From Synechococcus sp. CS-1329 (lineage in GTDB: Bacteria; Cyanobacteriota; Cyanobacteriia; PCC-6307; Cyanobiaceae), in assembly GCF_025128055.1 (NCBI RefSeq), contig NZ_JAHLYS010000024.1, forward strand, positions 1 to 64,000: a stretch of 64,000 nt of DNA. Direction: 5' to 3'. A program made the position numbers and the translations under genes. The notes below the pieces were generated by a model. It saw only the letters and a list, made by a program, of their open reading frames with translations, was not told the origin of the DNA and ran no database searches. Positions 49,557-55,525 of the stretch are shown piece after piece (within the stretch, counting starts at the first letter, position 1; every line of letters begins with the position of its first letter).

Positions 49557-50456
49557 ATGACAGCACCCGCTCCCCTGCCAGATCCGACGGCCTCCGATCA
49601 GCCCAGCGCCACGGACCTCGCCGGCATGCCCCTGGGCTGGCCCGGGCACAGCGGCGATCTGCCGCGCCGGTTCCCAGGCCGCGAGGCCCTGGTGCAGGAG
49701 CTGGCGGCACGGTTCCCCGAGGCCAGCGGTGGCGCCAGCCCGATCCGGGGGGGCTCGAAGCCGGCTCTGGCAGGCCTGGAGGCCCTTGATCCGGTGCGCT
49801 ACGCCTCCAGCCGCAACCACCTCGATGGTGCCGTGAGCGGCCTCTCCCCCTACATCCGCCACGGGGTGGTGAGCCTGGCGCAGGTGCGTGATCTGGTGCA
49901 GCAACGCATGACCGGAGGGCCGGAGCCCGTGAGCGAGAAGCTGTTGCAGGAGCTGGCCTGGCGCGACTACTGGCAGCGGCTCTGGGTCCGGCTGGGCGAT
50001 GGCCTCTGGGAGAACCTGGAGCCGCTCAAGACCGGCCACCCCGAGGCGGCCTACGCGCCCGGGTTGCCCGGCGACATCGACCAGGGCCGCACGGGCCTGG
50101 CCTGCATCGATGCCTTCGCACGCCAGCTGATCGAGCACGGCTGGCTGCACAATCACGCCCGGATGTGGCTGGCTGCCTACGTGGTGCACTGGCGCCGGGT
50201 GCGCTGGCAGGCGGGGGCCCGCTGGTTCCTGCGCCACCTGCTCGATGGCGATCCCGCCAGCAACAACCTCAGCTGGCAGTGGGTGGCCAGCAGCTTCAGC
50301 TCCAAGCCCTACGTCTTCAACCGCGCCAACCTGGAGCGCTTCGGCGCAGGGCGCCATTGCCCGGGCTGCCCGGCCGCGGCGGCCTGTCCCTTCGAGGCCA
50401 GCTACGAGGCCCTGCAGGCCCAGCTGTTCGCCGCGCCCCAGGGCGAGGCGAATTGA
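49557..50456 (+). CDS. Photolyase-like FAD-binding domain protein (no antenna domain)
   Basis: A 299-residue protein equal to the C-terminal helical FAD domain of the cryptochrome/photolyase family. Matches: SGLSPYIRHGVVSLAQV, ELAWRDYWQRLWV, EHGWLHNHARMWLAAYVV, and HLLDGDPASNNLSWQWVASS, which parallel blocks in the full photolyase at 54038. It has no N-terminal alpha/beta domain. The C-terminus carries a Cys set (HCPGCPAAAACPF) not in classical photolyases, possibly for a metal or Fe-S site. The missing domain is encoded by the next gene, 2 bases away. Confidence 0.82.
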   Translation: MTAPAPLPDPTASDQPSATDLAGMPLGWPGHSGDLPRRFPGREALVQELAARFPEASGGASPIRGGSKPALAGLEALDPVRYASSRNHLDGAVSGLSPYIRHGVVSLAQVRDLVQQRMTGGPEPVSEKLLQELAWRDYWQRLWVRLGDGLWENLEPLKTGHPEAAYAPGLPGDIDQGRTGLACIDAFARQLIEHGWLHNHARMWLAAYVVHWRRVRWQAGARWFLRHLLDGDPASNNLSWQWVASSFSSKPYVFNRANLERFGAGRHCPGCPAAAACPFEASYEALQAQLFAAPQGEAN

Positions 50457-50458
50457 GC

Positions 50459-50908
50459 ATGGAGCGCCCGGTGCTCTGGATCCACGCCGAGGCCCTGGGT
50501 CCGGCCAATCCCGCCCTGCAGGCCCATCCGGGCCAGCCGGCCCTGTTCGTCTTCGAGCCGGGGCTGCTGGCGGGCGACGCCGGGCCGATCAGTCTCCAGC
50601 GGATCGTCTTCCTCTACGAGTGCCTGCTGGAGCTACCGGTCACAATCCGCCAGGGCGATGGGGCCGAGGAGGTGCTGGCCTTCGCCGCCCGTCACCGGGC
50701 CGATGGGGTGGTGACCAGCGCCTGGGTGGACCCGCAGCTGGGGGAGATCGCCGCCGGCGTGGCCGCCTCCCTGCCCCTGCAGGTGCTGGAGCCGGAACCC
50801 TTCGTGGTGCTGCCGCAGCCGGTGGATCTGCGCCGTTTCAGCCGCTACTGGAAGCTGGCCGGGCCCAGGTTGCGGCCGGATCGCGCCGAGACAGACACGT
50901 TCTCGTGA
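50459..50908 (+). CDS. Photolyase-like alpha/beta (antenna) domain protein
   Basis: A 149-residue stand-alone domain resembling the N-terminal Rossmann-like half of photolyases: RPVLWIHAEALGPANPALQA (LVWFRxDLRxxDNxAL-like), ALFVFEPGLL, LQRIVFLYECLLELPV and RQGDGAEEVL. It ends where the linker to the FAD domain would start. The partner FAD domain is the gene just upstream, so the usual order is reversed. ATG at 50459; GTGA overlap with the phosphopantetheinyl transferase. Confidence 0.75.
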   Translation: MERPVLWIHAEALGPANPALQAHPGQPALFVFEPGLLAGDAGPISLQRIVFLYECLLELPVTIRQGDGAEEVLAFAARHRADGVVTSAWVDPQLGEIAAGVAASLPLQVLEPEPFVVLPQPVDLRRFSRYWKLAGPRLRPDRAETDTFS

Positions 50909-51594
50909 TCGATCCCAGCGAAGCCACCGTCCTCCGCGGCCCCATCACCCCCGGCGACCCCGCCCTGGCCGCGCCGCGGCGGCTGGAGCAGCCCGGGCTG
51001 CCGGCCACGGTCTGGTGGGCGGCGCTGAGCTGGCTCACACCCCAGCGGCGGCAGGAGTTGCTGGCGCTGCTGCCGGCCGAGGAACACCAGCGGTTGCAGC
51101 GCTGGCGCCAGCCGGCCGATCGGGATCGTTTCCTGCTGGGCCGGGGCCTGCTGCGGCTGCAGCTGGGGCAGGCGCTGGGGCTGGAGCCCGCCGCCCTGCG
51201 CTTCCGCCTCGGGCCCCAGGGCAAACCGGCCCTGGAGGAGGGGCTGAACGGCCAGAGCACCTTGCAGTTCAACCTGGCCCATTCGGGCGAGCTGGTGCTG
51301 CTGGCCCTCCACCCCGAGCGGCCGGTGGGGGTGGATGTGGAGCGGCAGCGGCCGGGGCTGAACTGGCGGCCGATCGCCAGGCGCCACCTGTCCAGTGGCT
51401 GCCTTGGGGCCCTCGAGGCGCTGCCGGTGGAGCAGCAGCTCGATGGCTTCCTGCAGCACTGGTGCCGCCTGGAGGCGGGGCTGAAAGCGACGGGACTCGG
51501 TCTGGCCGCAGCCGGCGCCCCACCACCACCAGGCCTGGAGCTGCACGATCTGCAGCTGCCGGCGGGCTACAGCGGCAGCCTCGCCCTGCTCTGA
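50905..51594 (+). CDS. Sfp-type 4'-phosphopantetheinyl transferase
   Basis: A 229-residue transferase loading phosphopantetheine on carrier proteins. Family blocks: KPALEEG, QFNLAHSGELVLLAL, VGVDVERQRPG (Mg2+ acid residues), and the helix HWCRLEAGLKATGLGL, corresponding to W-x-x-K-E-A-x-x-K with Arg-Leu replacing the usual Thr-Lys. GTG start overlapping the previous stop. The common target in cyanobacteria is the fatty-acid ACP. Confidence 0.85.
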   Translation: MIDPSEATVLRGPITPGDPALAAPRRLEQPGLPATVWWAALSWLTPQRRQELLALLPAEEHQRLQRWRQPADRDRFLLGRGLLRLQLGQALGLEPAALRFRLGPQGKPALEEGLNGQSTLQFNLAHSGELVLLALHPERPVGVDVERQRPGLNWRPIARRHLSSGCLGALEALPVEQQLDGFLQHWCRLEAGLKATGLGLAAAGAPPPPGLELHDLQLPAGYSGSLALL

Positions 51595-54037: not shown

Positions 54038-55525
54038 TCAAGCCACCGGTGCGGAGGCCACCGAAGCCGCGTGCAGGGCCTTGAAGCGGGCCTGCTGCGT
54101 CTTGTGATTCACGATCGGGGCCGGGTATCCCCGCCGCTCCAGGGGGGCGATCTCGCCGCGGATCAGGTCAGCTGTGGCCACCCGCGCAAGCTCAGGTAAC
54201 CAGCGGCGAATGTAGGTGGCCTCGGGATCGAAGCGGGCCGCCTGGGTGTAAGGGTTGAAAATGCGCAGCGGTTTGGGGTCCATGCCGCTGCTGGCACTCC
54301 ACTGCCAGCCACCGTTGTTGGCCGCCAGATCACCGTCCACCAGCAGGCGCATGAACAGGCGTTCACCCCAGCGCCAGTCGACGATCAGATCCTTCACCAG
54401 GAAGGAGGCCACGATCATGCGGCAGCGGTTGTGCATCCAGCCCGACTCCTGCAGCTGGCGCATGGCGGCATCGACGATCGGCACGCCGGTGAGGCCGTCG
54501 CACCAGGCGGCGAAGCGGCCCTTGTCGTTTTCCCAGGGGAAGTGGCGCCACTGGGGGCGATAGGGCCCATCCGCCAGAGCGGGGAAATGGAACAGGGCCT
54601 GCTGATAGAACTCGCGCCAGGCCAGTTCCTGCTCCCAGACCGTGATCGCCTGGTGCTCCTCCTCGCTGCGGGCCCGGGGGCGCTGCTCCTGGGCGGCGGC
54701 CCAGGCCTGGCGGGGGCTGAGGGTGCCGAACTTGAGCGCCGCGCTCAGGCCTGAGGTACCCGGCTCCGCCGGCAGATTTCGCCCTGGCTCGTAGCCCAGC
54801 AGCGGGCCATCGGCGAAGGCCGCCAGCTGGGCAGCGGCGGCGGCCTCACCGGGACGGCAGGGGCAGAGATCCGCGCCGGTGAAGGCGGCACCGGGCAGGC
54901 CATCGCCGGGGCTGGGCACGGCCTTGAGCCAGCTCAGCTGATCCCAGAGCCGACGGCCCTCGGCGGGAAGGGCGGCTGGGTCGAGATCGATCAGAGCCGC
55001 CGGTGCGGCCACGGGCGCGCAGGCTTCAGCGCCGGCCAGCTCGAGCCGCCGGCGCCAGGAGCGCAGGTAGGGGCCATAGACCCGGTAGGGATCACCGGCG
55101 CCGGTGGCCAGAGCGTCGGGGGGCACCAGCAGCTGGTCCCAGTCGGAGAGCAGCTTGCAGCCGCCGGCGCGCAGGGCCTCAGCCACGCGGCGATCACGGG
55201 CACGGCCGTAGGGCTCCACATCGCGGTTCCAGGCCACCACCTCAGCGCCGCTGGCCTGGGCCAGCTGCGGCAGCACCACGGCCGGATCACCTCGCAGCAG
55301 CAGCAGCCGGGAGCCGGCCTGGCGCCAGCGCTCCTGCAGCTCCCGCAGGCTCTCGCTCAGGAACCAGAGCCGGGCCGGGGAGAGATCCGGGGCCTCCAGC
55401 AGGCCTGGATCGAAGATGAACACCCCGGTGACGGCGGCGGTGGCGCGGGCGGCGGCCGCCAGACCGAGGTTGTCGGCCAGGCGCAGATCGCGGCGGTGCC
55501 AGAACAGCCAGCGCGGCGGGCTCAT
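54038..55525 (-). CDS. phrA: Deoxyribodipyrimidine photolyase
   Basis: A 495-residue class I photolyase repairing cyclobutane dimers with blue light. N-terminal antenna domain (WLFWHRRDLRLADNLGLA), FAD domain (WEQELAWREFYQQALFHFP, TGVPIVDAAMRQLQESGWMH, LLVDGDLAANNGGWQWSASS, IFNPYTQAARFDPEATYI). Probably 8-HDF-type antenna, as in other cyanobacteria. ATGA overlap with the Nudix gene's stop. Confidence 0.93.
   Translation of the reverse strand: MSPPRWLFWHRRDLRLADNLGLAAAARATAAVTGVFIFDPGLLEAPDLSPARLWFLSESLRELQERWRQAGSRLLLLRGDPAVVLPQLAQASGAEVVAWNRDVEPYGRARDRRVAEALRAGGCKLLSDWDQLLVPPDALATGAGDPYRVYGPYLRSWRRRLELAGAEACAPVAAPAALIDLDPAALPAEGRRLWDQLSWLKAVPSPGDGLPGAAFTGADLCPCRPGEAAAAAQLAAFADGPLLGYEPGRNLPAEPGTSGLSAALKFGTLSPRQAWAAAQEQRPRARSEEEHQAITVWEQELAWREFYQQALFHFPALADGPYRPQWRHFPWENDKGRFAAWCDGLTGVPIVDAAMRQLQESGWMHNRCRMIVASFLVKDLIVDWRWGERLFMRLLVDGDLAANNGGWQWSASSGMDPKPLRIFNPYTQAARFDPEATYIRRWLPELARVATADLIRGEIAPLERRGYPAPIVNHKTQQARFKALHAASVASAPVA

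Follow-up and report, generated by a model that had tools for sequence, protein, structure and literature searches.

The phr4/phr5 pair of Synechococcus sp. CS-1329, a conserved two-gene photolyase with reversed domain order

The window analysed here, a stretch of 64,000 nucleotides of Synechococcus sp. CS-1329, carries the phr4/phr5 gene pair, an already published, real and conserved two-gene photolyase. We consider it very probable that Phr4/Phr5 is a photolyase made of two chains. The whole explanation, a two-subunit, domain-permuted photolyase with an Fe-S cluster and a separate antenna, most likely acting on CPD, is held with good confidence. Our analysis adds to what is known of the pair by arguing for two chains, by extending its known range, and by showing that its active site is at odds with the substrate tentatively proposed in the literature.

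In the proposed mechanism, Phr4 would bind FAD and also an Fe-S cluster, through C183, C268, C271 and C277. Phr5 would be an antenna subunit in its own right, docked on Phr4 in a physical complex. It would hand light energy from its putative chromophore to the FAD, and the FAD would then split the pyrimidine dimer through electron transfer. Overlap or near-overlap of the genes would balance the amounts of the subunits, with the chains staying separate. If Phr4/Phr5 is indeed an Fe-S CPD photolyase, then an Fe-S cluster is no marker of (6-4) repair, and the antennas of photolyases can be separate subunits.

The pair had been put forward, from the sequence alone, as a candidate for an undescribed system. 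This did not hold, as Haney et al. (2022) name phr4 and phr5 and note their reversed order and four cysteines (PMC9426592). A fused phr6 is reported in the same paper for two Cyanobium strains, and the pair and its expression are mentioned in PMC3441193 and PMC7393227. Among the matches listed in a literature search, with most subscription journals outside its coverage, there was no later functional study of phr4/phr5.

The gene pair and its neighbours

The features of the locus are the following:

49557..50456, + strand: phr4, FAD-domain subunit, 299 aa (ATG 49557, TGA 50454-50456)
50103..50105, + strand: codon of C183, first of the four Fe-S-type cysteines of Phr4
50148..50165, + strand: lesion-site motif H198-N199-H200-A-R-M203 of Phr4, with Asn where (6-4) photolyases carry the catalytic His
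50358..50387, + strand: CxxCx5C of Phr4, with the codons of C268 (50358-50360), C271 (50367-50369) and C277 (50385-50387)
50454..50461, + strand: Phr4-Phr5 junction, with stop TGA, 2-base gap and start ATG
50459..50908, + strand: phr5, antenna (Rossmann) subunit, 149 aa (ATG 50459, TGA 50906-50908)
50905..51594, + strand: HetI/Sfp-type phosphopantetheinyl transferase (PPTase), GTG 50905, start codon not firm
54038..55525, - strand: full-length photolyase, a separate enzyme and neighbour, 3.1 kb beyond phr5

The host genome has 2.58 Mb in 49 contigs, and its nearest named relatives, among the matches listed in a GTDB scan, are Cyanobium and Synechococcus. As originally predicted, a gene with the FAD domain only is followed by one with the antenna domain only, the reverse of the order in ordinary photolyases, and sister genomes keep this arrangement. 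The predicted 2-base gap between them (50456 / 50459) was also found, and the probable co-translation that had been proposed is supported. A full photolyase is indeed nearby, 3.1 kb past phr5 where 4 kb had been given. Its best NCBIfam model is photolyase_8HDF (647 bits, under the cut-off of 884.6).

Within the genus, five sister genomes encode Phr4 and Phr5 proteins with 79-98% identity to those of the window, and the gap between their genes is 2 bases in 6/6 genomes, window included. Furthermore, dN is lower than dS in all ten comparisons (dN/dS 0.12 to 0.57). Fused relatives, found in 25 of the 110 loci described below, might raise the suspicion of an error in sequencing or assembly, or of a photolyase in decay. 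They do not imply a frameshift artefact, because all six genomes of the genus keep the split. Error and decay are ruled out by the sister genomes; with the identical gap, the dN/dS values and a domain order reversed relative to ordinary photolyases all against them, we give them practically no chance. The view that the split is not a simple frameshift artefact thus stands.

Downstream of the pair lies the PPTase gene, whose product matches the Pfam domains AASDHPPT_N (1.8e-12) and ACPS (1e-8). Its start at GTG 50905 is not firm because the match begins at residue 12-15 in four of the five sister genomes, and the 4-base overlap with phr5 noted earlier is real only if this GTG is the start. The coupling of the PPTase to the pair holds in the genus, where it is directly downstream in 6/6 genomes, and is lineage-specific in the host family. 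Of the 24 family genomes with both genes, 13 have the PPTase no more than 5 kb from the FAD gene (upstream in 4 of these), and 11 have it far away or on another contig. As a functional partner across the host family it was therefore rejected. The PPTase is the sole PF01648 match in the host genome at E 0.1, and its probable role is therefore the general activation of carrier proteins. It is probably a housekeeping gene packed into a short operon, and not part of the photolyase enzyme.

A second photolyase-like FAD gene is found near the pair in at least 16 of 80 named loci, a lower bound because many of the loci are truncated. It is on the opposite strand, as in the window, in nine picocyanobacterial loci (L004, L005, L007, L008, L015, L019, L023, L052 and L053), and on the same strand in L022, L042, L043, L045, L046, L071 and L081. 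Beyond the window region, the host has two more photolyase-family genes (G000:C30:2454-3041 and G000:C48:72071-72739), of which one encodes a FAD_binding_7 protein and one a PhrB-type protein.

Distribution, spacing and number of chains

The locus set joins 80 relatives from the GTDB scan (the best of at least 404) with 30 loci from 151 genomes of the host family. This gives 110 rows, of which 109 are distinct (L021 and L109 stand for one contig), and the counts over rows or pairs below refer to this set. We classed 61 as split, 25 as fused (one a duplicate) and 24 as lacking an adjacent antenna match. Their labels, taken from record titles, include Nostocales, Chloroflexi, Acidobacteria, Planctomycetes, Verrucomicrobia and Proteobacteria. 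In L008 a stop falls close to the start assigned to it and is shown as X in alignments, and the antenna genes of L041 and L043 extend past the contig end.

The 24 rows without an adjacent antenna match consist of 13 long single-chain relatives (L070, L072-L083), one locus cut by a contig end (L064) and ten genomes treated below. The 13 long relatives, mostly labelled Burkholderiales, are without the last three Fe-S cysteines, and L070, L073 and L081 have weak C-terminal matches to the antenna profile. Perhaps they form a fused, cluster-less branch.

In the host family, the FAD gene is present in 52 of the 151 genomes. A survey of the pair across these genomes, as had been suggested, revealed strict pairing: an antenna gene follows on the same contig and strand, at most 500 bp downstream, in 52/52, with one open frame in 18. 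The copy at G140:C1:2975609-2976481(-) has a TGA in frame within its FAD match, either a broken copy or a sequence error, and was not counted as fused. Two family genomes (G047 and G138) have only a partial antenna match, one of them at its contig's first base.

Haney et al. left open whether a +1 frameshift yields one chain, and a constant phr4-phr5 spacing of 7 bases is stated for their strains (PMC9426592). A programmed ribosomal frameshift fusing Phr4 and Phr5 into a Phr6-like chain, the possibility they raised, would agree with this spacing and with the natural fused genes. We consider it highly improbable. Among the 61 split pairs no constant spacing was found: it ranges from -44 to 136 bases, with a 4-base overlap commonest (19/61). 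All three frames occur, phr5 being in frame 2, 0 or 1 relative to phr4 in 41, 11 and 9 pairs, respectively, independently of the start codon chosen. L053 and L113, two near-identical Synechococcus junctions, have the stop and an AGGAG word in common and differ in spacing by one base, which places phr5 in frames 2 and 0.

The halves can also lie apart. Each of the ten genomes that lack an antenna gene next to the FAD gene encodes one elsewhere, and seven of these cases are not explained by contig breaks (two Nostoc, two Brasilonema, two Scytonema and one Fischerella). In G155 the two genes share a contig, with the antenna gene 5.9 kb downstream. In the other six it is on another contig, and the 1.35 to 3.96 kb after the FAD gene are free of it. 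Flanks of the antenna gene were inspected in five of the seven (G156 and G157 were left out). Three genomes were excluded from the non-adjacent count, namely G158, where a FAD tail sits beside the antenna gene, and G159 and G160, for contig ends judged from coordinates. When the halves are not adjacent, frameshifting cannot join them. Some lineages may still use a frameshift; as for the question raised in 2022, of one frameshifted chain or two chains, the evidence leans to two.

Shine-Dalgarno-like words precede phr5 in 23/61 pairs, where shuffling gives 9.2 on average. Of the pairs whose gap is at least 8, only 2/15 have such a word. A dedicated ribosome site thus does not seem general for phr5, and between the two options translational coupling appears better supported.

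In a quick tree, the split or fused state needs 7 changes as drawn, with starred branches forcing only 2 for “fused”. In this tree 42 of 117 inner branches are open and the outgroup does not form one side (4/10 rows are on the wrong side), and neither the root nor the placement of Phr7 is trusted. Tentatively, and with somewhat more doubt than confidence, we suggest an obligate two-protein photolyase spread across several phyla, with an Fe-S cluster and a CPD-type site, a free and sometimes unlinked antenna, and repeated fusion and fission. L077, a MAG labelled Klebsiella pneumoniae, groups in the tree with Burkholderiales-type sequences and is probably a mislabelled bin.

The FAD subunit and the antenna subunit

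The sole Pfam match of Phr4 is FAD_binding_7 (E 2.3e-25), and its best PDB sequence relatives are class I CPD photolyases (1OWL, 1.2e-22). A structure was predicted for L109, a natural Phr4-Phr5 fusion (pLDDT 87.8, pTM 0.88). By VIA-align, whose rows cover mainly residues 14-323 (the FAD half), the closest structures are prokaryotic (6-4) photolyases (Z 17.4, 3.9 A, 271 residues), with class I photolyases behind at a Z of about 14. Class I photolyases lead in the Foldseek E-value ranking of the same model.

In terms of cysteines, profile alignment places C183, C268, C271 and C277 of Phr4 on the four cysteines of PhrB-type proteins (C346, C434, C437 and C450 in L120), with PhrB-type spacing. 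The PhrB-type profile contains 7/9 such proteins from the host family, including L121 of the host genome, with two short ones left out. The last three cysteines of Phr4 are present or absent together: they occur in 25/25 fused and 56/61 split rows, and the remaining five split rows lack all three, with C183 present in 3 of them. Phr4 likely carries an Fe-S cluster on these four residues. The C-terminal cysteines had already been proposed as an Fe-S site, a proposal that the PhrB alignment favours and to which it adds C183 as the fourth ligand candidate.

The cysteine-poor split pairs (L047, L048, L051, L058 and L059) come under four phylum labels and still keep both genes. Judging from the alignment, the cluster was apparently lost or never gained in them. 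In the marine-type Synechococcus loci L007, L008, L053, L104, L111 and L113, the last residues of Phr4 before the stop form a short basic stretch, ARP(K/Q)R.

As for Phr5, the window protein itself has no Pfam or NCBIfam match. When ten proteins were scanned with DNA_photolyase (PF00875), all 7/7 stand-alone Phr5 relatives matched, each scoring under the curated threshold (E 8.5e-5 to 0.01), and the three fused or long ones gave no match. With hhalign, the N-termini of 6 photolyase-family proteins align with the Phr5 family profile (96.9%, E 1.4e-10), and in the PDB this profile matches cryptochrome and photolyase chains (best 7.7e-5). The antenna-like nature assigned to this alpha/beta protein in the original prediction, which was to be checked against a photolyase profile, agrees with these matches.

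The AlphaFold model of Phr5 (pLDDT 89.5) has photolyases on top in Foldseek (1QNF first, E 2.6e-5) and CryB/PhrB antenna domains on top in VIA-align (Z 13.1, 144 residues, 4.4 A). Universal stress proteins, which share the broad fold of the antenna domain, rank lower (VIA-align best Z 10.9).

R48 of Phr5 is present in 85/85 antenna sequences of the set, and it aligns with R52 of P0004, the window photolyase. We take this R52 as the counterpart of SePhrA R51, whose role is described in PMC9178010; the correspondence is our own. Aligned PDB cryptochrome chains also have Arg in this column, so R48 is not diagnostic of 8-HDF. As the antenna chromophore of Phr5, 8-HDF is only suggestive and we do not claim it. 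The CofH match in the host genome reaches 346.5 bits, below the family cut-off of 374.1. Position 47 is Gln in the window Phr5 and Lys in 71/85 antenna sequences, which we count against the main reading.

Substrate and comparison with known photolyases

At the lesion site, N199 is found in 110/110 FAD rows (109 distinct) and M203 in 105/110. In the same columns class I CPD photolyases have HN..RM, the Drosophila (6-4) photolyase HH..RH and PhrB-type proteins HH..RL. The changes H366N and H366N/L370M abolish (6-4) repair in PhrB (PMC4619345), and the residues of the double mutant are those natural to Phr4. Similarly, His365 to Asn abolishes (6-4) repair in the Drosophila enzyme (PMC9852545). 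L130, a protein of a relative that we labelled Phr7-like, bears the same HNH..RM motif, and Phr7-type enzymes are reported to be single-strand CPD photolyases (PMC9426592). The four cysteines are also all present in a PhrB-type protein of the host genome, so a (6-4) function would make Phr4/Phr5 its second (6-4) enzyme. Because Asn199 replaces the catalytic His, mutants of this kind lose (6-4) repair and a PhrB-type gene is already present, we lean towards CPD as the probable target of Phr4/Phr5, contrary to the published (6-4) proposal.

Protection that is independent of light is not expected of a photolyase. Disruption of phr4 in RS9916 cuts survival under UV-C, not under UV-B, with a 20-30 fold drop under UV-C, a range that covers the phr2, phr3 and phr4 mutants, and the authors read the UV-C-only phenotype as (6-4) repair (PMC9426592). 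In the same study, phr4/5 gave E. coli the same protection against UV-C whether it was kept in the light or in the dark. Both observations speak against, or fit poorly with, a CPD photolyase. No photolyase reading explains the equal protection of E. coli well.

Haney et al. based their proposal of (6-4) repair on the Fe-S cysteines and the UV-C phenotype; that the same two-subunit enzyme acts on (6-4) photoproducts is in our view rather unlikely. The UV-C phenotype of the phr4 mutant would fit, as would the four FeS-BCP-type cysteines, the VIA-align result for the FAD half and the CryB/PhrB resemblance of the Phr5 model. These are set against an Asn for the catalytic His in every row, the very swap that kills (6-4) repair in PhrB and Drosophila, and against the class I CPD photolyases as top PDB sequence relatives and the PhrB-type gene of the host.

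It had also been supposed that the pair has another job, as a light sensor or redox protein with DNA repair not its main task. This idea, to which the light-independent protection of E. coli and the several further photolyase-family genes of the host would be favourable, was not supported, and we regard it as improbable: the phr4 disruptant is UV-C sensitive (PMC9426592), the lesion-site motif is conserved, and Pfam reveals no sensor or output domain in the phr4 or phr5 products.

The two-chain photolyase that we favour, probably acting on CPD, can be compared with four known groups. With the Phr4/Phr5/Phr6 of marine Synechococcus and Cyanobium (PMC9426592), the window shares the FAD-then-antenna order, the four cysteines and the fused relatives. 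The spacing differs, being 7 bases there and 2 bases in the window, and the available portions of that paper make no mention of the PPTase that lies directly downstream in the genus of the window.

The FeS-BCP or prokaryotic (6-4) photolyases (PhrB, CryB, SePhrB) have four cysteines that align with those of Phr4, and both window domains are structurally near to them. However, they carry the antenna first, in one chain, and a catalytic His (His366 in PhrB), whereas the window has the opposite order, two genes and Asn199.

NewPHL, short photolyase-like (SPL) and Phr7 proteins, reported as single-strand CPD photolyases of inverted topology (PMC9426592, PMC13274461), have the FAD domain first, as in the window, and the Phr7-like L130 has the HNH..RM motif in common with the window Phr4. 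Phr7 (PMC9426592) and L130 have no Fe-S cysteines, whereas Phr4 has four; this group also has one chain with a short Z-domain, unlike the window pair.

Lastly, class I CPD photolyases (1OWL, and the window gene at 54038-55525) give the best sequence match of Phr4 and have the Asn and Met of the lesion site in common with it. They differ in having the antenna N-terminal in the same chain and, over the aligned part, in lacking counterparts of the Fe-S cysteines.
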